From the IMG/VR virus record IMGVR_UViG_3300032397_000085, positions 1 through 23,331 of that record: 23,331 bases of DNA; one strand, 5' to 3'. Below the pieces are notes generated by a model. The model saw only the letters and a list, made by a program, of their open reading frames with translations. It made no database searches and was not told the origin of the DNA. The stretch's first letter is position 1; each line of letters opens with the position of its first letter. Shown here one piece after another: positions 2,354 through 20,872 of the stretch. The position numbers were made by a program, and so were the translations under genes. Source of the stretch: a virus.

Positions 2354-2955
2354 TTAAAAATTCAGCTTCATACCAGCCAGCCCGGCCTCCCATTTCAAAC
2401 GCTCTTCTTTTTCCAATCGAATTTCCTCGGCCAGTTTAAAGAAATCAGCCGCGGGCATTTGCCGGACGGATTCCAAGGTGGATTTAAGGAAAATGGCCAT
2501 CTGGCGGATGATCATATCGAAGGTTTCAAGGGTGAATTCGCGGTCGAAGGGCCGGTCATCACAGTTTTTTTTTGAGCCTCGAGTGCGCTTTCCAGCGCCT
2601 CGAAATCGTCAATGTCCAGACCTTGGCAGACCAGAAGCATCTTGCTGTAAAGATCGAGCAGCTGGTGGTACTGCAGGCCGAGCAGGAAGCGCCGGATTTT
2701 GCGGTTGCGCCGCCAGAATGCAAGCCCTGCGGACAAATGATAAAATTCCACCGGCGGTGTGATCAGCAGTATTTGCAGTTGGCGGATTATGCGTTCCTGC
2801 TTCGCGGCCGCCGGTTCATTCCGCAAAGCCTCCTCGTCTTTCGGCATTGTCTTTATGCAGGCCATGATCTGGCCGACCGTCGGCATTTGACAATCGAAGA
2901 GACATTCGCCATCAGGCGATTTTAATTCAAAGGATTTGGTATTTGCTACGAGCAT
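2354..2955 (-). CDS. Tail assembly chaperone GT fusion made by -1 frameshifting
   Basis: This is the extended product of the chaperone gene. It shares the first 130 codons with the 147-residue short form, slips back one base at the A9 run (2565-2573), and continues NCDDRPFDREFTLETFDMII to TAA at 2354-2356. The fusion is 200 residues, with 70 contributed by the -1 frame. That frame has no start codon near its beginning, is free of stops throughout and encodes a charged helical peptide ending AGLAGMKLNF. It fills the whole space up to the tape measure start at 2350, which otherwise would have no gene. In lambda and many other tailed phages, gpG and gpGT arise this way; GT recruits tail tube protein onto the tape measure. 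The frameshift is inferred from the slippery run, the open frame and the position, and has not been measured. Confidence 0.82.
2512..2955 (-). CDS. Tail assembly chaperone, short (gpG-like) form
   Basis: The zero-frame product has 147 residues, from ATG 2953-2955 to TGA at 2512-2514. It is acidic at the N-terminus (MLVANTKSFELKSPDGE) and helical in the middle (LQILLITPPVEFYHLS). It ends in a short low-complexity tail (TGPSTANSPLKPSI) read only when the ribosome does not shift. It lies between tail tube genes and the tape measure, where gpG-type chaperones sit. The start follows the upstream stop by 3 bases, and a GGAG 12 bases before the ATG may act as the ribosome binding site. The sequence does not identify a named family; the role is assigned from position and from the frameshift arrangement. 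Confidence 0.78.
   Translation of the reverse strand: MLVANTKSFELKSPDGECLFDCQMPTVGQIMACIKTMPKDEEALRNEPAAAKQERIIRQLQILLITPPVEFYHLSAGLAFWRRNRKIRRFLLGLQYHQLLDLYSKMLLVCQGLDIDDFEALESALEAQKKTVMTGPSTANSPLKPSI
2564..2574 (-). promoter_or_regulatory. Programmed -1 ribosomal frameshift site (A9 run)
   Basis: On the minus strand the zero-frame codons are CAA AAA AAA ACT, giving the heptamer A AAA AAA followed by C. This allows P- and A-site lysine tRNAs to slip back by one base, after which decoding continues AAC TGT GAT. The site is 18 codons before the zero-frame stop. I did not find an obvious strong pseudoknot directly downstream. Bacterial A-rich heptamers can shift without one. Confidence 0.78.
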
Positions 2956-2958
2956 ATT

Positions 2959-3360
2959 TTAAAGACTCCATTTTGAGCCGGTGAAACTGTATTGCATGAT
3001 GACTGAAACGCCCTTGATGCGGCCTTGCACAGACCCGACAGCATTGAATAAAATCCATGGCGCGGCGGAGTCGGTGGGATAAACATAGAGCCGCCCGTCG
3101 TTCTCGTCTTCCTGCAAGACCGCCATGAGTTGAAGCATATATTGAAAGGCCTCAGCAACAGTGCTTGCCTTGTGGACGACGGTAAAATTGATTGCCGATT
3201 TCCAATTCTTGCGCCCGAAAATCGCCGCGTTCGCTGCCCGCAGAAAAGCGGCTTCCTGAGTCACGCCCTGCCCGGATATATCAAGATTGAATGGACACTC
3301 GCGGGCGGCGAGTCCGCCCGCGAGGTCATAAGTAGTGTTCCCTTCATACTTGATTTTCAT
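2959..3360 (-). CDS. Small tail protein, function unknown
   Basis: The product has 133 residues and no signal peptide. The central part contains FGRKNWKSAINFTVVHKAS followed by an amphipathic helix (TVAEAFQYMLQLMAVLQ), and the C-terminus is beta-rich, ending SVIMQYSFTGSKWSL. Small proteins of this style, with a 'GR-N-hydrophobic-F-V' strand, an Ala-rich helix and a final 'Y-x-hydrophobic-G' strand, occur next to tail tube genes in phages. I recognise the style but cannot name the family. It lies between the tail tube gene and the G/GT chaperones, where lambda has no gene. It may be a tube-associated or tail-tip protein. The ATG at 3358-3360 is preceded by GGGGA, a plausible ribosome binding site. 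Confidence 0.6.
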   Translation of the reverse strand: MKIKYEGNTTYDLAGGLAARECPFNLDISGQGVTQEAAFLRAANAAIFGRKNWKSAINFTVVHKASTVAEAFQYMLQLMAVLQEDENDGRLYVYPTDSAAPWILFNAVGSVQGRIKGVSVIMQYSFTGSKWSL

Positions 3361-3369
3361 GTCCCCGCA

Positions 3370-4317
3370 TCACGTCACTAAAGCGAGCGAGAAGAGCGCA
3401 TCCGGCACGCCGGCGGTGACGCCGCGCTGGGTTTTGAAAACCAAGTCGTTCAGGCGCTTTTTGCCCGACCCCCAAGTCGCTTGGAAGTTGTCCTGCAAGG
3501 CCGCTTTTTTAATTGTTACCAGCGGATCGCCCGAAGCCGCGCCAGTGATAACCAAATCATTGGCCTGCGTAAAGAAGCTGCCGCCAATCGCCCCGTTGGT
3601 GCCCTGAATGTTCAAGGCGTCGAGAATGTTGACGAGAGATTTGCCAATCGGCACAAGCTTGGCAGTGACCTCGACGCCGGAAAGCGTCATGTCAATGGTG
3701 CCTTCGTCGTCAATCTTGACCGGCTCGACGGAGACATTGAAGTCAATCGTAATGCCGTCTTCGGTGATAATCGAATCAAACGGACTGGCACCCCAAACCA
3801 CCCCAAATTTGCTGGTCCTGATTTTGGTGCGGTCAAAGGTGGAGAGCGAAGGGAATGTTCCCGCTGCGATGGTGAAGATGGAATTGGCCGTGATGCGGGT
3901 CGTGGCATTCGCCGGGACGCAAGTCAGCTCGCATTCGCCGAAAATCGTCTTTCGGGCGGAAAGATTAAGTGATGGCATCTTGGTGACGGCCGCCGCCGCC
4001 AGCGTCACCTTCTGGCCGTCCTGCCCCCAGATATAAACCGGCACGTCCGCCGCCCCGAAAATGCTCGAGCCGATGGAGGGGTTCATGTAAGGATAAAGGA
4101 TGGTGAGCATGGCGGAGAGCCATTCTCCGACCGGTGTGAACCGGACTTTGACTTCCGAGTCCTCGAGGCGGTCTTCAAGTTTTCCCCAAACCGCGGTGTC
4201 AATCGGAAACGCTTTTTTGGAAACCTCAAGGATGACGTCACCCTTGGTAAGGAATTTTTGGCTGCCCATGTCTATCACACAAGGGCCGCGCACGATGGTT
4301 GTTCTGTTTACTGCCAT
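3370..4317 (-). CDS. Major tail tube protein (probable)
   Basis: The product has 315 residues, is beta-rich and has no membrane segment. It opens MAVNRTTIVRGPCVIDMGSQ and contains internal strands such as DGITIDFNVSVEPVKIDDEG. It ends with KKRLNDLVFKTQRGVTAG. Its size, beta-rich character and place directly before the chaperone and tape measure genes are those of a siphophage tube subunit. A tube protein polymerises around the tape measure to form the tail shaft. The start has a good ribosome binding site (TAGGAG, 5 bases before ATG), in line with high expression. No contractile sheath gene accompanies it, so the tail is probably non-contractile. Assignment is by context and fold impression; a tail-spike or adhesin role is less likely. 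Confidence 0.68.
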   Translation of the reverse strand: MAVNRTTIVRGPCVIDMGSQKFLTKGDVILEVSKKAFPIDTAVWGKLEDRLEDSEVKVRFTPVGEWLSAMLTILYPYMNPSIGSSIFGAADVPVYIWGQDGQKVTLAAAAVTKMPSLNLSARKTIFGECELTCVPANATTRITANSIFTIAAGTFPSLSTFDRTKIRTSKFGVVWGASPFDSIITEDGITIDFNVSVEPVKIDDEGTIDMTLSGVEVTAKLVPIGKSLVNILDALNIQGTNGAIGGSFFTQANDLVITGAASGDPLVTIKKAALQDNFQATWGSGKKRLNDLVFKTQRGVTAGVPDALFSLALVT

Positions 4318-4351
4318 GTTTGCTCCTATGTTGAATTTTTATTTGAAATTT

Positions 4352-4537
4352 TTATTCGGCGATTTTCGGGCCGATATAGAATCCGGTCGCGCCGAAGCAT
4401 TGGCCTTCATGCTCGTAAAAAACCGTCTGGCCGGTTGTGGCGTAAGCGTAAGATTTCTTGATTGGCATGGCATCTGCCGGAAGAATCGGCGGATTTGCCG
4501 GTGCTTTTTTTTCTGGAATTTTTTCTGGCTCTTTCAT
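4352..4537 (-). CDS. Small hypothetical protein between tail terminator and tail tube
   Basis: The product has 61 residues. The N-terminal third is a Lys/Pro/Glu-rich linker (MKEPEKIPEKKAPANPPI), and the remainder (YAYATTGQTVFYEHEGQCFG) looks like a small beta unit. The ATG is preceded by AAAGGA with 6 bases of spacing, a convincing ribosome binding site, and the gene starts 13 bases after the upstream stop. These points argue for a real gene despite its length. Mu has a small gene (gp38, DUF2635) in the corresponding position, but I cannot match its motif here, so the function is left open. Confidence 0.6.
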   Translation of the reverse strand: MKEPEKIPEKKAPANPPILPADAMPIKKSYAYATTGQTVFYEHEGQCFGATGFYIGPKIAE

Positions 4538-8569: not shown

Positions 8570-9073
8570 TTATGAAATTCCCATGATGATGATGTCGTAG
8601 GTGATGCTACCAGTTCCGGCATTTTTAATCCGAAGGATGTCTGCGGAGCCGTCCGCCACAGCATATCCGGCGGCGCTTGGATTGACCCATAGGTGAATGC
8701 CGCCCGGCCCGACGATAACGCCGTCGTTTGCCGCGACAAAGCAAGAGGCGACACCGTTGGTGACCGCGCCGCCGATTTGTAAATTCTCTCCGGCCGTCGT
8801 GGAATTGTTGCGGATAAAAAGAAGCTTGAATGCGGATAGTGAAACGGCGTCGCCAAGCGCATCATCACCCAGTGCCGTCAGGTCATAATCCTGCGAAGCG
8901 CCGGAAGCCAGCGCGTTCTGGTCATGCCAGATTTTCTGGATTGAATTCGCGCCCGCGCCGTTCGCAAAAACAATGCGCGTCAATTCGTCCAACACATCTT
9001 CCGGCGAAGACAAGTCTAACGCCTTTATCAGTTCAGAAAGAATTTTGATGGTTATGGTTGCAGTCGCGCTCAT
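8570..9073 (-). CDS. Beta-rich virion accessory protein, unknown
   Basis: The product has 167 residues. An N-terminal helix (KILSELIKALDLSSPEDVLD) is followed by a beta-rich half with FKLLFIRNNSTTAGENLQIG, then VGPGGIHLWVNPSAAGYAVA, ending with RIKNAGTGSITYDIIIMG. The pattern 'L-F-I-R-N-x-S ... L-x-I-G-G ... V-x-PGG ... R-I-x-N-x-x-T' is typical of small phage beta-sandwich proteins that attach to heads or tails. The start codon shares its A with the upstream capsid paralogue's stop (TAATG), so translation is probably coupled to it. I infer a capsid-associated role from position; function is not shown. Confidence 0.58.
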   Translation of the reverse strand: MSATATITIKILSELIKALDLSSPEDVLDELTRIVFANGAGANSIQKIWHDQNALASGASQDYDLTALGDDALGDAVSLSAFKLLFIRNNSTTAGENLQIGGAVTNGVASCFVAANDGVIVGPGGIHLWVNPSAAGYAVADGSADILRIKNAGTGSITYDIIIMGIS

Positions 9074-10038
9074 TATAGAATGGTTAGTTTGCCGAGTCCG
9101 GTGGTTGTCGTGATGATGATGTTCGAGTAATGCTCGACTGTCAGATCGGTGAATTTTTCGCGTTCGTCGAGATAGACGCGGAAATTGCCGCCGCCTTCAA
9201 ATGGCGTCACAAATCTTTTGCAGTTACTTGGATCGTCCTTGGCCATAATGCCCGTGCCGTAGAAATATAGGATGATATTGGCCAAGACAGGCGTCTTGAC
9301 TGATGCGGAAGATTGATAGCGTTCATCAATCATGCGGCATCTCTCGACCGCGAGTATGCCTGCGAGCGAAGGCGGCGACAAGAGCGCCAGCCGCGCATCG
9401 CCTTTTGTCGGGCGACTGTTGTAAGCATCCGCCCGCTTGTTCCATGCCGTTTCGCCATAGGCGACGTTGTTGGGGCGGAATCCAATGCTGTTCGCGGCTG
9501 CGGACAAAGCATCGCGGACGTCCTTGTCGGGATTCGGGATGACATTGCTTTCTTCCTCGAAAGTCCAAACCAGATTTTTATTGGAGGCCGCGGCGGCAAG
9601 CAATGCAATGGCGCGCCGCAGTTCATTCAGGAGCAGGCGGTGGATCAAGAGCTTTGCCGTTATGCCTTCAAATCCGGGCATTTGTTCATCGTGGTCAACT
9701 CTGATTGTAAGCCCCTTGTTCAGCGTTTTGCTTTCGGTGTGGGTGCCGCCATATTCTATTCTTTTGAAAGCCGAGCCGACGGCGCGGACATCATCAGTTT
9801 CAGAATAAAAATATTTCGCGTTCGTTCCTTTTTTGAAGGAAAATCTCCGGCCAGCAGGAACCGGCGGCGCTAGGAAATCAACCAGCGATTGCAAGCGCAA
9901 ATCCGCCGCCCATCCTACCGAGAAATCCGTCAGCGGCCAGCTATAATGCGAGGCTGCAAAGCGGCTTTCGTTGGCGGCGCAAATCTGCCCGGCTTTTTGA
10001 AAGCCGTCATCCGCGGGCAACTGTTCGATATTATTCAA
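9073..10038 (-). CDS. Second major-capsid paralogue
   Basis: The product has 321 residues and is clearly homologous, end to end, to the capsid protein encoded at 10123-11091. Shared blocks include ICAANESRFA, SETDDVR, TLNKGLTIRVDHD, RRAIALLAAAA, NPDKDVRD, RYQSSAS and VEHYSNI. The only start that fits is TTG at 10036-10038 (MNNIEQL), because an in-frame stop lies four codons upstream; there is no ribosome binding site. It differs in the region after position 200 and carries its own insertions. Both copies keep full length without stops, so both are probably made. A role as minor or alternative capsid subunit, vertex protein or portal-ring partner is possible. The codon usage looks less GC-biased than in the upstream copy, and the weak start suggests lower output. 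Confidence 0.8.
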   Translation of the reverse strand: MNNIEQLPADDGFQKAGQICAANESRFAASHYSWPLTDFSVGWAADLRLQSLVDFLAPPVPAGRRFSFKKGTNAKYFYSETDDVRAVGSAFKRIEYGGTHTESKTLNKGLTIRVDHDEQMPGFEGITAKLLIHRLLLNELRRAIALLAAAASNKNLVWTFEEESNVIPNPDKDVRDALSAAANSIGFRPNNVAYGETAWNKRADAYNSRPTKGDARLALLSPPSLAGILAVERCRMIDERYQSSASVKTPVLANIILYFYGTGIMAKDDPSNCKRFVTPFEGGGNFRVYLDEREKFTDLTVEHYSNIIITTTTGLGKLTIL

Positions 10039-10122: not shown

Positions 10123-11091
10123 TTAACTGGCTGTGATTCTGCGGATGCCGAGAGTCGAAGTGATGACGATGTTCGAGTAGTGTTCGACCGAGATGTCGGT
10201 GAACTTGGCTTTTTCTTCCAGGTAGACGCGGAAGTTGCCGGCGTCAGTCGGCGTAACGAAACGCTTGATGTTGCTCGGCTCGTCCTTGGCCGCGCCGTCG
10301 AGCGCGTAGAACATGTAGACATAGGAACCGAGGATTTTTGTCTTAGCGGAGGCGCTGGACTGATAGCGCGCGGAGATGATGCGGACGGCGTCAACGAGCA
10401 GTTTGCGGGCGACCTCCTCTGGCAGAAGACCGGCGCTGCGGTAGCCCGCCGGATTGTTCTGGGAATCGAAGGCGTCGGCGCGCAAGTCCCATGCGCCCTC
10501 GCCCCAAGCGATGCGGTTTGGGCGGATGCCGGAGGCGTCGGTGCCGAGGACGAGGCTGTCGCGCACATCCTTGTCCGGATTCGGATATTTGTTCGAGGAG
10601 TCGTTGTAGGTCCACGTCTTGCTCAAATCCGTGGCGGCGGCTGCGAGCAGGGCGATGGCGCGGCGGACCTCGTTGCGGTATAGGCGCTGGAGGAGCAGTT
10701 GCGTGTAACGCTCCCGCCAGTCCGCGCCCTCCTCCGAGTCATGGTCAACGCGGATGGTCAGACCCTTATTCAGAGTCTTTTCATTGACGGTCTCGCCGGT
10801 GAAATCCACCCGCTTGAATTCCGCGCCGATGGAGCGGACATCGTCGGTTTCGGACAGGAAGGCCTCGGAGTTCACGGCCTTCTTGAACTCGAACCTTCTG
10901 CCGACCGGGACGGAAGGCGCAAGGAAGTCGAGGATAGCGAGCAGGTCGGTCGGGTCTTTCCAGCCGACTGCGAATGCGGTCAGCGGCTCGCTCAGGAATG
11001 ACCCGGCGAAGCGGCTTTCATTGGCAGCGCAGATGACGCCCGGCTGTTGCCGGCCGTCATCGAATGGAATTATTTCACGATTATCTTTCAT
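10123..11091 (-). CDS. Major capsid protein (probable, HK97-like fold)
   Basis: The product has 322 residues, opens MKDNREIIPFDDGRQQPG and contains ILDFLAPSVPVGRRFEFKKA, RNEVRRAIALLAAAATDLSK and FRVYLEEKAKFTDISVEHYS. The gene follows the protease/scaffold and decoration genes, where the capsid lies in Mu-like and lambda-like modules. Its length is near that of lambda gpE or Mu gpT. The '..APxVPVGRRFEF' and 'AARLxxxRR..AL' features suit E-type/HK97-fold capsid proteins, but the sequence alone does not settle the subfamily. It is more GC-biased than the next gene, in line with strong expression. The start ATG is preceded by an A-rich leader (11092-11151) without a ribosome binding site. Confidence 0.78.
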   Translation of the reverse strand: MKDNREIIPFDDGRQQPGVICAANESRFAGSFLSEPLTAFAVGWKDPTDLLAILDFLAPSVPVGRRFEFKKAVNSEAFLSETDDVRSIGAEFKRVDFTGETVNEKTLNKGLTIRVDHDSEEGADWRERYTQLLLQRLYRNEVRRAIALLAAAATDLSKTWTYNDSSNKYPNPDKDVRDSLVLGTDASGIRPNRIAWGEGAWDLRADAFDSQNNPAGYRSAGLLPEEVARKLLVDAVRIISARYQSSASAKTKILGSYVYMFYALDGAAKDEPSNIKRFVTPTDAGNFRVYLEEKAKFTDISVEHYSNIVITSTLGIRRITAS

Positions 11092-13514: not shown

Positions 13515-15148
13515 AGCTTCATTTTGGTTTTTAGGGATTTCGCGGCATTTTTGGCCGCGCTTAAAATTCCACCGGCTGCCCGGTTTTTAAATTTTGGGTT
13601 TTGCGCTTTTAATTTTGCATCGGCGGATTGCCGTCCTTCCGCTGCACCTTCCGCCAAAGCTGTTCCGAAAATTTCCTCGTTGGCGGCAGCGAGATTGTCT
13701 CGTTTAAGGATTTCTCCAGCCAGTGAATCGTAATTCGCCATCAAGGCGGTTAATGCGTTTCTTTGCTTTTCTTCATCCTCAATGTCCGCGACCGCCGCCA
13801 GCATATCGCGCAGAGGCAGTAGGTCTTTTGCCAAAGATTCACCGGCTAATATTTTTGCTCCCTTGTCGAATTTCGATTGCTGATTTTTTAAAGCATTGGC
13901 GCTCTCATTGGCTGCGTTGCTCGCCGGATTTAAAGTCGGCGCGCCGCCGTTAAGAATCGGTTCCACGATATCTGCATCGTCCGTTGGTTGTGGAACTTTG
14001 AATCTGTCATATAGCCATTTGCGGCTCAATGGAAGATTCATGGCTTGAAGCCCGCGGGCGATATCCAAATCGCGTTTGTCATCCTGTTGTTTGGCCGTCT
14101 TCAGTTGAATATAGGCCAAGGGGTCGACATCTTCGCCGAAGAGATATTTTATGACAAAACGATCAACCTGTTCATTGAGGGTTTCGGAAATGTCTTCAGC
14201 ATCGTCCTGTTCAAGGATATCCCCTTCTCCTTGCTGAAGGGTCACACCCGCCCCTGCGCCTTGGCCTTGCGAGATTGTGGAAAGATCAGCGCCGCGCCAT
14301 AGAGCCGCCATGGCGCGGTCCATGCGTTCGACAAGTGGCGGATAAGGCAGATTGCCCTTGGCGGTCAAATCAATGGCGGAGATATCGGTTCCCGCGCTCA
14401 TTAGCGCGTTGAACTCGGCGGAGAATTGTTCGACGGCCTCTTTGGCTTGGTTCCATTGTTCGCTGTTGGGGATTGCGTCAGTGATTCCCTTGACTCCGGG
14501 CATACCGTTTCGCTCGGAATAAGTGAGCCAATCCATCAAGCTGAGCTTTTTATAAATATAGGCGACCGAGCAGGCGACCATCAGGCCGTCGCCGACAGTC
14601 ACCATCCATTCGCCGGGCAGAAGATCAGCGCCTTCATAAGCGCCTTCGGAATTCAGGAAGCGAAGTTTTTTGCCATGATGCTCAAAATAGCGCAGCGGCA
14701 CAAAACGGAATTCGGCGGTCAAGCCGTTCGGCCTTGGCTGCCAGACGATTTCATGGGCGGCATATTTCATTCCGGCGGAGTCCATCATTTGGCGGACGAG
14801 GCGGGAGACGCCGCCGCGCTCATCCTCGTCAACCGCGTTTGTGGCCCGCAGGTTGTTGTAAAAGAATTTCAGCGCCGCGCTATGCTGCTCGGCCTCCGGG
14901 CTGTCTTCAAGCTTCAGAATTTCCCAGCCGTGACGCGCCACGGCCTTTTTTCTTTTACCGATGACGCCCTTCAAGACGTCGTCGCGCTCGGCGATGGTTT
15001 CAAACGTCAAAGCAGTCAACCGGAATTCCCCCACGCAAAATTGCTCGAGCTGGGAGACGAGTTGTGCTGGCGTGAGGTTTCGTATTGGATTAAACCTGCC
15101 GCTCCAGCGCGGGAAACGGTTCTGGTTTATTGAAGTCTGGGTTTTCAT
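13511..15148 (-). CDS. Portal protein (DUF935, Mu gp29-like)
   Basis: The product has 545 residues. It opens with FNPIRNLTPAQLVSQLEQFC and contains ALTFETIAERDDVLKGVIGK followed by KRKKAVARHGWEILKLED, the typical DUF935 start. The middle has IVWQPRPNGLTAEFRFVPLR, GEWMVTVGDGLMVACSVAYI and SERNGMPGVKGITDAIPNSE. This is followed by the DLSTISQGQGAGAG segment and the late QVDRFVIKYLFGEDVDPLAY. Portal subunits form the ring through which DNA enters the head. Length and motif order match Mu gp29 (about 510 residues), with a longer Ala-rich C-terminal tail ending KNAAKSLKTKMKL. The ATG overlaps the terminase stop (ATGA). Confidence 0.86.
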   Translation of the reverse strand: MKTQTSINQNRFPRWSGRFNPIRNLTPAQLVSQLEQFCVGEFRLTALTFETIAERDDVLKGVIGKRKKAVARHGWEILKLEDSPEAEQHSAALKFFYNNLRATNAVDEDERGGVSRLVRQMMDSAGMKYAAHEIVWQPRPNGLTAEFRFVPLRYFEHHGKKLRFLNSEGAYEGADLLPGEWMVTVGDGLMVACSVAYIYKKLSLMDWLTYSERNGMPGVKGITDAIPNSEQWNQAKEAVEQFSAEFNALMSAGTDISAIDLTAKGNLPYPPLVERMDRAMAALWRGADLSTISQGQGAGAGVTLQQGEGDILEQDDAEDISETLNEQVDRFVIKYLFGEDVDPLAYIQLKTAKQQDDKRDLDIARGLQAMNLPLSRKWLYDRFKVPQPTDDADIVEPILNGGAPTLNPASNAANESANALKNQQSKFDKGAKILAGESLAKDLLPLRDMLAAVADIEDEEKQRNALTALMANYDSLAGEILKRDNLAAANEEIFGTALAEGAAEGRQSADAKLKAQNPKFKNRAAGGILSAAKNAAKSLKTKMKL

Positions 15149-16467
15149 ACCAGTTGCCTTTCCCGCAGCGGCTGCCTGACGGCGCGCCCGGCTTTAAATG
15201 TTTCCGAATGGAAAATCCCCCCCGGCCCTTTCGCCGCCTGCAAAGCGAGCGCAAGAGCCGTTGCGCGGTCGCAGTGCCCGTCATCGCTGTGCGGGGCGAG
15301 ATAGCGGATTCCGCCGCTGGCGGTGGTGATTTTCTGCATGCCATGCAAATCCTCGCGGATGGCGCGGCTGACGGGAATCCTAACGGTTTTGTCCTCGAAG
15401 ATGCGGCGGACATTGGTGAAAATTTCCTGTTTGAAGGGCGCGGTGAACTGGCATTCCTCGACGCGGTATTTGCCGTGATGGCGGGCAGCTTCCTCTGCCA
15501 TCATAGCACCGATGCCGGTGGCGTCTATGCAGCAATGCCTGATGGCGGGAGAGCGCAGGACGGCGGACAAAAAATCAAACTGGATATTGAAAGGCGTTTT
15601 CTCAAACACTTTGATCCCGGCGGTCCAGAGGACGTCGCCGATTTTTTCCAGCAGCCAAAATACCGTCAGGTCTTTCTTGCGGCCAATGTCCACTCCGAGA
15701 TAAAGCGGATTTTGCGATAGAATCCGCTGCGGCTCCCATTCCTCGACGGCTTCGGCATTTTCGCAAGCGGCGAGCAACTCATAGGGTAGAAGGATGGAGG
15801 CGGCGTCAATGAACTGGCATTCATATTCCTGCGCCCAGCCTTCGGGATCATCGAGGCCTTCCTTCAATTCCTCGACGTCGAGCGGAAGCCCCTCGCGGAC
15901 GGCGGCATAGATGTCAATGAAGTGCTTGCTGTATTTTTTGTTCTTTGTCCAGAGGTCGTAAAATTTGTTCGCCTTGCCGTTCGGAGTGCTGGCAATCCGG
16001 ATTTTGAAAAGCCCTTTCAAAGGGTTTGAAATGCTCGGATATATGGCCCGCCAGATTTCGTTCGGCTTTTCATGGAAGGCGAATTCATCGAGATTGAGGT
16101 TGGCGCTATAGCCGCGGGCGGTCGCCGGGTTGGCGGGGATGGCAATCGAGCGGCTGCCGTTGGGCCACTTGATTTCCGCCGATTTCATCAGGGCCTCGGC
16201 ACTCTCGCGGTCCTCCAGATAATCTTCGATGGCGATTTTGTAGGCCGCCGCCCATTCCTTGGCCTTCATCAGCCATTCGAGCGCTTGCCGCTCGCCGGCG
16301 GAGAGCGTGACCCACATGGTTTTGTGCTTCAAGCAATCCTCGACGGTCTCCTCCGCCATGGTAAAGCTCTTGCCTGTCTGCCGCGCCCAGCAGCCGATCT
16401 TGAAGCGGCTCTCGTCGTCCACCCAGCGGCGCTCATAAGGGAGTAAAATGTCCTTGGGCGATTTCAT
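15145..16467 (-). CDS. Terminase large subunit (Mu gp28-like)
   Basis: The product has 440 residues. The ATPase half has a Walker A-like WARQTGKS (residues 27-34), a Walker B NLNLDEF (123-129; Asp127, Glu128) and the coupling motif IASTPNG (159-165). The nuclease half shows LGVDIGRKKD with Asp260, CCIDATGIG with Asp315, and DDGHCDRATA around Asp395-Asp400, giving the acidic cluster of an RNase H-like fold. It pumps DNA into proheads and cuts it. The adenine-binding region YERRWVDDESRFKIG also fits. The ATG overlaps the small terminase stop as ATGA. All motifs appear intact. Confidence 0.92.
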   Translation of the reverse strand: MKSPKDILLPYERRWVDDESRFKIGCWARQTGKSFTMAEETVEDCLKHKTMWVTLSAGERQALEWLMKAKEWAAAYKIAIEDYLEDRESAEALMKSAEIKWPNGSRSIAIPANPATARGYSANLNLDEFAFHEKPNEIWRAIYPSISNPLKGLFKIRIASTPNGKANKFYDLWTKNKKYSKHFIDIYAAVREGLPLDVEELKEGLDDPEGWAQEYECQFIDAASILLPYELLAACENAEAVEEWEPQRILSQNPLYLGVDIGRKKDLTVFWLLEKIGDVLWTAGIKVFEKTPFNIQFDFLSAVLRSPAIRHCCIDATGIGAMMAEEAARHHGKYRVEECQFTAPFKQEIFTNVRRIFEDKTVRIPVSRAIREDLHGMQKITTASGGIRYLAPHSDDGHCDRATALALALQAAKGPGGIFHSETFKAGRAVRQPLRERQLV

Positions 16468-19515: not shown

Positions 19516-19860
19516 CTAATTTTGAATTGTATTCTCTTTGGCCGCAAAGATAGACCAGAGGAGGCATGCGAACCAGATAAGCACCGTCCAGCCGAAGAGG
19601 ATATTGAGCCATGCGATGGGCGCTAATGCGGCGGCGCGGCGAGACATGGCAACATAGGCGGGCAGGAGATAGATGAAGATGGCGGGCGCATAGTAGATGA
19701 TTAAATTGCCGAAGGAGAAATTCGGGAACCATTTGAGGTGATCAAGGATGTCCGCGTGTTGAACTCCGACAATCGAGATGTAAATTATGAGTCCGGCAAA
19801 GAGGCCGATGACCAAAAACATTGCGGCTAATGCCAGCCGGGCAATAAGGGGCATTTTCAT
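19516..19860 (-). CDS. Superinfection immunity-like membrane protein
   Basis: The product has 114 residues and three or four membrane segments: ALAAMFLVIGLFAGLIIYIS (N-terminal), YAPAIFIYLLPAYVAMSRRA and the C-terminal IAWLNILFGWTVLIWFACLL. The closing motif 'I-x-x-L-N-x-L-x-GWT-x-x-x-W-x-x-x-L-x-W' is that of the Imm_superinfect (PF14373) family, related to T4 Imm, which blocks entry of DNA from a second phage at the inner membrane. Its neighbours are an RHH regulator and a signal-anchored unknown protein, so it may be made with them as an early or lysogenic gene. The start overlaps the upstream stop as ATGA. Confidence 0.72.
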   Translation of the reverse strand: MKMPLIARLALAAMFLVIGLFAGLIIYISIVGVQHADILDHLKWFPNFSFGNLIIYYAPAIFIYLLPAYVAMSRRAAALAPIAWLNILFGWTVLIWFACLLWSIFAAKENTIQN

Positions 19861-20438
19861 TTTTGGGAATTATTTTTCAACTGCCATTCGACTTCTTTTA
19901 TAAAGTCCTGAATGGCCGTGCGGTCGCCGTCGTTCACAGTTTTGCCCATGCCTTCAATGGCATCAAGCGCGGCGAGGAGTTTTTCTGCGCGGTGGCGAAG
20001 TGTGCGGCCGGAGGAGTCTAATTTTTGGGGAAGATTTTCGATATAGGTCTCTGAAATTTTCTTAATGCCATTGCGGAGGCCGCCGTCATATTTTAGCCAG
20101 AGGATGGCGGCGCGGGCGCGGTCGGCTTGGCCGGCGGAGATGATTTTAAGGATGCTCCAGAAGGGCGCGCCGCGGCGGACTTCACCGTCGGGCATGAGGA
20201 CTCTTTCAAAGGTTGATGCTTCGAGTCCGCGTTGCCATGAGCCGGGCATGTCGTTTTCAATCAGGCCGCCGGGGTAGCTGAAGGTGAAGGCGTTTTGGAG
20301 GTTTTCTTTTAACTCCTTCACGCTGGTTGTTGGCGGCGGCGATGGTTTCATTTCCCCGTCAACGGCTTGAAGCGTGATGATTATTATGAGAGCAAGGGCG
20401 ATGATGATTTTGAAGAATTTATTGCCGGGCGTTTTCAT
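19857..20438 (-). CDS. Membrane-anchored or exported protein of unknown function
   Basis: The product has 193 residues. KFFKIIIALALIIIITLQAV (residues 7-26) is an N-terminal anchor or signal segment with no evident cleavage motif, followed by a linker (KPSPPPTTS). The soluble part contains NAFTFSYPGGLIENDMPGSW, EVRRGAPFWSILKIISAGQA and a helical end (LLAALDAIEGMGKT). I do not recognise a family. A good ribosome binding site (AAGGAG, 10 bases from ATG) and ATGA overlap with both neighbours show it is a real gene in one unit with the RHH regulator and the immunity-like protein. A periplasmic role in exclusion is possible but not shown. Confidence 0.6.
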   Translation of the reverse strand: MKTPGNKFFKIIIALALIIIITLQAVDGEMKPSPPPTTSVKELKENLQNAFTFSYPGGLIENDMPGSWQRGLEASTFERVLMPDGEVRRGAPFWSILKIISAGQADRARAAILWLKYDGGLRNGIKKISETYIENLPQKLDSSGRTLRHRAEKLLAALDAIEGMGKTVNDGDRTAIQDFIKEVEWQLKNNSQK

Positions 20439-20782: not shown

Positions 20783-20789
20783 AAATCTC

Positions 20790-20817
20790 AATGTAGCGCA
20801 AAGAATTACATTGTCAA
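20790..20817 (-). promoter_or_regulatory. Leftward promoter
   Basis: On the minus strand TTGACA (20817-20812) is followed by a 16-base spacer and TACATT (20795-20790), then 7 bases to the ATG of the leftward RHH gene. The -35 is a perfect consensus. The short distance to the ATG would give a leaderless or nearly leaderless transcript. Confidence 0.6.
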
Positions 20818-20837
20818 AAAAAATAATTAAAAATCGC

Positions 20838-20865
20838 TTGACAGTATGCTACATTGCGCTACATT
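20838..20865 (+). promoter_or_regulatory. Rightward promoter
   Basis: TTGACA (20838-20843), a 16-base spacer and TACATT (20860-20865) lead to the ATG of the rightward RHH gene after 7 bases (GGAGCCT). The spacing is identical to the leftward promoter. TATGCT (20845-20850) is a second possible -10 with no good -35. GGAG would be a ribosome binding site only if transcription starts upstream of it. Confidence 0.6.
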
Positions 20866-20872
20866 GGAGCCT

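Follow-up and report, generated by a model that had tools for sequence, protein, structure and literature searches.

A candidate lysis–lysogeny switch built on two divergent ribbon-helix-helix genes in a Mu-like phage and its relatives

Gene content of the locus

The DNA analysed here, referred to throughout as the window, is the entire IMG/VR record IMGVR_UViG_3300032397_000085 (23,331 nt) and is probably a piece of a larger phage. Pfam and PHROG matches include a Mu-type portal, a Mu-like protease, Gp36 and a terminase of the T4/B3 type, and Mu/B3-like phages were among the closest relatives of the window terminase large subunit (TerL) in the set of annotated phages compared; judging from these families the phage is of the B3/Mu-like type. 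The head region contains a tandem duplication, two similar frames of 321 and 322 aa on the minus strand (9073-10038 and 10123-11091), which are perhaps copies of the major capsid protein.

Close to one end of the window lies a 90-bp gap between two divergently transcribed genes for ribbon-helix-helix (RHH) proteins, RHH1 to the left and RHH2 to the right (Table 1). The rightward strand continues from RHH2 with two genes of 128 and 286 aa and then the beginning of a 326-aa frame, and the leftward strand from RHH1 with the lysis region, followed by packaging and head genes. The 326-aa frame is matched by no Pfam model but is homologous to a 661-aa protein of locus L296 (6353-8338, E=6e-12) and a 691-aa protein of L295 (5765-7840, E=7e-6), both in early operons. 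In the relatives, L295 included, an AAA_22/TniB MuB-like ATPase comes after the transposase, which is the MuA/MuB arrangement. An earlier reading of the window from its letters, here called the sequence-only reading, had placed the border between early and late blocks at the gap; with a MuA-like transposase operon running rightward and lysis, packaging and head genes running leftward, in the window as in its relatives, this split is real.

The 193-aa gene that overlaps RHH1 by 4 bp is probably co-transcribed with it on account of that overlap. Immediately after RHH1 come two frames that contain hydrophobic stretches (19516-20438, minus strand), linked by 4-bp overlaps at 20435/20438 and 19857/19860; membrane-type frames also come after the late-side RHH gene of L003, and those of the window might be expressed in the lysogen. 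No convincing terminator was found between RHH1 and the late genes, and terminator-like matches occurred at the rate seen in shuffled sequence, so that operon ends are not callable.

Table 1. Features of the window around the divergent gap, with the terminase gene used as an anchor
Feature	Position	Strand	Remarks
Terminase large subunit (TerL)	15145..16467	-	family matches; anchor for finding relatives
193-aa protein	19857..20438	-	hydrophobic N-terminus; 4-bp overlap with RHH1; without family match
RHH1, 115 aa	20435..20782	-	RHH domain, then a tail predicted with low confidence; on the late side
Divergent regulatory gap, 90 bp	20783..20872	.	two promoters, four TACATTG operator-like sites, A/T-rich centre
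Putative late-side operator	20789..20799	-	GCGCTACATTG, one copy over the leftward -10, mirrors the early copies
Leftward (RHH1) promoter	20790..20817	-	TTGACA (20817-20812), 16 nt, TACATT (20795-20790), 7 nt, ATG (20782); spacing conserved
Fourth TACATTG	20807..20813	+	overlaps the leftward -35; opposite in orientation to the other leftward copy
Rightward (early) promoter	20838..20865	+	TTGACA (20838-20843), 16 nt, TACATT (20860-20865), 7 nt, ATG (20873); spacing conserved
Putative early operator	20848..20866	+	GCTACATTG twice, 10-bp spacing, over spacer and -10; repeat p=0.001
RHH2, 66 aa	20873..21073	+	RHH protein; first gene of the early (transposase) operon
Early gene 2, 128 aa	21080..21466	+	without Pfam or PHROG match; L003 counterpart 29% over 107 aa
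Early gene 3, 286 aa	21473..22333	+	L003 counterpart 27% over 193 aa
MuA-like transposase, N-terminal 326 aa	22352..23329	+	cut by the contig end; homology to relatives

The two RHH proteins

On their own RHH1 and RHH2 give weak RHH-type matches in Pfam and PHROG, both below the Pfam cut-offs, and they share 40% identity over 43 aa with one another. Proteins of the relatives match RHH_1, and a profile built from 14 such RHH proteins matches RHH-type structures in the PDB, namely ORF56, the CopG family, MazE, VapB, NikR and EndoAI, with 2k9i as the best match (E=6.6e-5). Together these matches, which bear out the sequence-only reading of both gap neighbours as RHH proteins, assign RHH1 and RHH2 to the RHH (CopG/Arc/MetJ) superfamily at the level of sequence. 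The predicted structures place two helices where the RHH fold expects them, with a mean pLDDT of only 64-67, and in Foldseek the best matches of RHH2 are Arc structures at a weak E-value (0.87). A Pfam scan of the 115-aa RHH1 detected no C-terminal S24 peptidase domain.

Promoters and repeats in the gap

The two promoters are mirror images of one another, as had been claimed: either strand reads the same hexamers at the same spacing, and a promoter scan recovers both independently with 10/12 consensus matches each, taking a sigma-70-like consensus as an assumption for the host of the window phage. Their downstream halves are alike as well, sharing TTGCGCTACATTG, and the halves of the gap make up a 29-nt dyad with 79% complementarity; their likeness over these 29 nt has a score of 14, where shuffles average 5.7 and none of 1000 reaches 14. 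The two -35 hexamers are separated by an A/T-rich tract (20818-20837), which recurs at the gap centre in the relatives L100, L160, L031 and L132, even with differing operators, and is often close to TTTTTCTTG right at the early -35. The tract may serve as an UP-like or bending element.

The 23.3-kb window has four copies of TACATTG, and all of them fall within the gap (20789-20795 on the minus strand; 20807-20813, 20850-20856 and 20860-20866 on the plus strand), which confirms the number of copies noted earlier and the 10-bp distance between two of them. The last two copies form the direct repeat GCTACATTG/GCTACATTG. Four copies within 90 bp appeared in none of 300 dinucleotide shuffles of the window, and four copies in none of 5000 shuffles of the gap itself. 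Judged by these motifs, operator-like repeats overlap both promoters.

Relatives carrying a divergent RHH pair

When RHH1, RHH2 and the 326-aa frame were each used singly to scan viral contigs, none returned a match, nor did the 326-aa frame in a search of phage genomes. Relatives were instead reached via TerL, for which about 175 viral and genomic loci were fetched; several hundred Verrucomicrobiota genomes were then searched and about 60 upstream regions fetched, and the start codons of the relatives were set by hand. Nine phages were found to carry divergent RHH genes where the early and late blocks meet, a count that leaves out L059, which has just the early RHH gene, and L101, which has just the late one. 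The gap measures 90 bp in the window, 89 in L003, 88 in L006, 81 in L031, 83 in L100, 78 in L132, 81 in L160, 74 in L259 and 77 in L260. The eight further phages trace mostly to Verrucomicrobiota; L132 is labelled Akkermansia (a genome bin) and L160 is a prophage carried by Verrucomicrobia bacterium LW23. In each of the seven phages that were aligned, the RHH protein on the late side is the longer of the two, and in the relatives the pair is conserved beside the transposase operon, not beside a toxin.

The layout and length of the gap are kept, while its sequence differs from phage to phage. Most relatives show operator-like repeats whose sequence is not that of the window. In 7/9 phages, the window included, the stretch from the early -35 to the start codon holds a significant repeat (combined Fisher p=1.3e-9; 4e-8 without the window). 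In the window, L003, L006 and L031 the early-half repeats are 8-9 nt long and spaced by 10-11 bp, with three copies of TAAAGATT in L003 (11-bp spacing), two of TTAAACTCA in L006 (11 bp) and two of GTTATACG in L031 (10 bp); the early halves of L160, L132 and L259 carry inverted repeats. By the same test on the nine phages, the late halves taken together show no significant repeats, and the gap of L260 has no clear operator.

The two halves of a gap resemble each other more within one phage than across phages, with a permutation fraction of 6e-5 (4e-4 without the window, 0.003 without the window and L006). Non-overlapping halves were compared, since overlapping ones count palindromes twice. This within-phage signal is driven by few phages: the likeness is significant individually only in the window, L006 and L132, borderline in L100 and not significant in L003, L031 and L160, and for L259 and L260 it comes from the pooled test alone. 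These last two are prophages of one genome (G442), and their gap sequences are different, as expected if each prophage sets its own immunity.

The distance from promoter to start codon is also conserved. In 13/18 promoters a TTG stands 34-37 nt ahead of the start codon (shuffle mean 2.0, maximum 7); with the window set aside the figure is 11 of 16 against 1.7 expected, and in L003 the early spacing of 47 nt equals 36 plus one 11-bp repeat unit. With TTG at this distance the start codon would fall near +1 in most promoters, and both window transcripts probably begin at, or 1-2 bases from, the start codon. The leaderless or nearly leaderless transcripts that had been predicted for the window are thus backed by a spacing that is conserved between -35 and start. 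The cI mRNA that lambda makes from pRM is leaderless as well. The absence of Shine-Dalgarno motifs was dropped as an argument for leaderless transcripts, since most window genes lack such a motif and its absence is uninformative.

CI-like repressors in the RHH1 slot

Peptidase_S24 at the C-terminus is a signature of SOS-cleavable CI/LexA repressors. The RHH1 counterpart of L160 (5364-6143, plus strand) carries such a domain (E=2.5e-12) and matches a PHROG annotated as transcriptional repressor; among the RHH pairs scanned it is the only S24 fusion. In seven siblings (L109, L233, L234, L246, L255, L256 and L271) the RHH1 slot is occupied by an S24-type, CI-like protein, whose gene shares the strand of TerL and lies 3.8-5.7 kb upstream of it. 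All six of those inspected have an HTH-like N-terminus and a small HTH-like gene facing them, both recognised by eye from the sequence. In the TerL tree the RHH type is intermingled with the S24 type, which forces at least two changes between them; clustering TerL at 90% identity gives 9 clusters with RHH pairs, 7 with S24 in the slot and 104 unclassified.

The proposed switch and its alternatives

The gap is quite probably the control region of a lysis–lysogeny switch of the CI/Cro type in which both DNA-binding domains are RHH, in a B3/Mu-like phage of Verrucomicrobiota. Divergent genes for two DNA-binding proteins head the early operon, as in a switch of this type, and the earlier idea of two RHH proteins in place of a c/ner or cI/cro pair has gained comparative support from the eight further pairs, the S24 occupants of the slot and the RHH-S24 protein of L160. 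We infer the roles of the two proteins, their DNA binding and the transcript starts from sequence. RHH1, on the leftward side, would most likely act as the lysogeny repressor in a CI-like role, with dimers that would bind the tandem GCTACATTG copies over the early -10, probably cooperatively, and so silence RHH2 together with the transposase operon. Through the matching site at its own -10 RHH1 would adjust its own level, and with tandem early sites against a single RHH1 site the early promoter would be held tightly while RHH1 repressed itself only mildly. RHH2 would most likely be the Cro/Ner-like partner, binding the same operators, turning RHH1 off and later damping early transcription.

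Both proteins of CI/Cro-type pairs usually read the same operators, and nine phages retain the two RHH genes together; these points speak for a shared target. The RHH domains of late- and early-side proteins are only about 30-40% identical, though, and either protein alone could explain identical operators on both sides, so one may ask whether TACATTG is bound by one RHH protein while the other has a different target. We consider this somewhat unlikely, and it would be a sub-case compatible with a lysogeny switch. A less probable reading, which we judge unlikely, takes the gap as a timing device of lytic growth, in which RHH2 would repress the early genes and RHH1, heading the late operon, would be held with it in mutual repression. 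RHH1 could be such an early/late timing regulator because its gene runs into the one to its left, with no strong terminator ahead of the lysis and packaging genes; the early/late border also falls at the gap. A further point against the lysogeny switch is that the RHH1 proteins, that of L160 excepted, are without a recognised induction domain. Against lytic timing stand the contents of the slot itself, which in seven siblings is filled by an S24 CI-like repressor and in L160 by an RHH-S24 fusion, and the example of phage KS10, whose repressor likewise lies on the strand opposite the transposase operon (PMC2628397).

An accessory role is very unlikely. Such a module would resemble P22 immI, the mnt-arc-ant region that controls an antirepressor (PMC8022706), and, the window being a fragment, the main repressor could sit beyond its end. 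The pair nevertheless sits in the CI slot of the siblings and would control the transposase operon itself, and Pfam and PHROG recognised no antirepressor family beside it, the downstream genes leading to the MuA-like transposase. Scarcely credible, finally, is the notion that RHH1, RHH2 or both are type II toxin-antitoxin antitoxins that autoregulate their promoters: many RHH proteins are antitoxins, as are several of the PDB matches, yet no toxin family was recognised downstream of either gene (Pfam/PHROG), and it is by the transposase operon that the pair is kept.

Comparison with known regulatory circuits

The proposed switch shares with lambda cI/cro, and with the HTH-S24 repressors of Mu-like phages such as MuM16-1 (PMC8541194), the divergent arrangement of a repressor and a small early regulator. 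Opposed promoters with shared operators, putative ones in the window, are a further likeness to the lambda-type pair, and HTH-S24 CI-like repressors occupy the same genomic slot in the siblings, S24 recurring in the L160 homologue. The DNA-binding domain is HTH in those systems but RHH in the window, where RHH1 is without S24. The repressors surveyed in Mu-like phages are HTH proteins with or without S24 (PMC8541194). In KS10 the repressor faces a 63-aa DNA-binding protein followed by the transposase and B genes, and its regulators and those of BcepMu are, as far as described, not RHH (PMC2628397). A repressor facing a small DNA-binding gene ahead of transposase A and B is thus common to Mu c/ner, KS10/BcepMu and the window, whereas the Mu regulators are HTH and both members of the window pair RHH. 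All lytic genes of Mu run in one direction; early and late genes of the window phage diverge.

Phage P22 offers a pair of adjacent, divergently transcribed RHH repressors, Mnt and Arc, in the same configuration as the window pair, and it is Arc that RHH2 matches best in Foldseek, at the weak E-value given above. The P22 immI region is a secondary immunity region that controls an antirepressor (PMC8022706), and it differs from the window, where the RHH pair heads the transposition operon and stands in the CI/Cro slot. The F55 protein of the archaeal virus SSV1 is an RHH repressor that maintains lysogeny by binding tandemly repeated sites that cover transcription starts; early promoters carry two of these sites and the F55 promoter a single one (PMC5569661). 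This asymmetry is similar to that of the window, which has tandem early sites and a single one over the RHH1 -10, but F55 belongs to an archaeal virus and is a single RHH regulator for which no divergent RHH partner is described (PMC5569661).

Both P22 mnt/arc and SSV1 F55 are thus partial precedents only, and a literature search of incomplete coverage found neither an RHH/RHH primary switch in a transposable phage nor an RHH-S24 repressor. On balance we lean towards the view that transposable phages of Verrucomicrobiota use an RHH/RHH primary immunity switch that is exchanged with HTH-S24/HTH at one slot, changes its operators fast and is sometimes made SOS-inducible by fusion of RHH to a LexA-type peptidase. 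Immunity switches are the textbook genetic toggle, and the ones that have been described in Mu-like phages rely on HTH proteins (PMC8541194); if this view is true, the toggle circuit survives a swap of its DNA-binding fold. The phages would then offer natural operator/protein pairs for the study of how RHH specificity evolves, and a route to the immunity genes of Verrucomicrobiota prophages, the one in the Akkermansia genome bin among them; annotation that looks for HTH proteins would overlook these genes. The two one-sided relatives, L059 with an early-side RHH gene (4160-4357, minus strand) and L101 with a late-side one (2652-3101, plus strand), suggest mixed or partly replaced switch modules.
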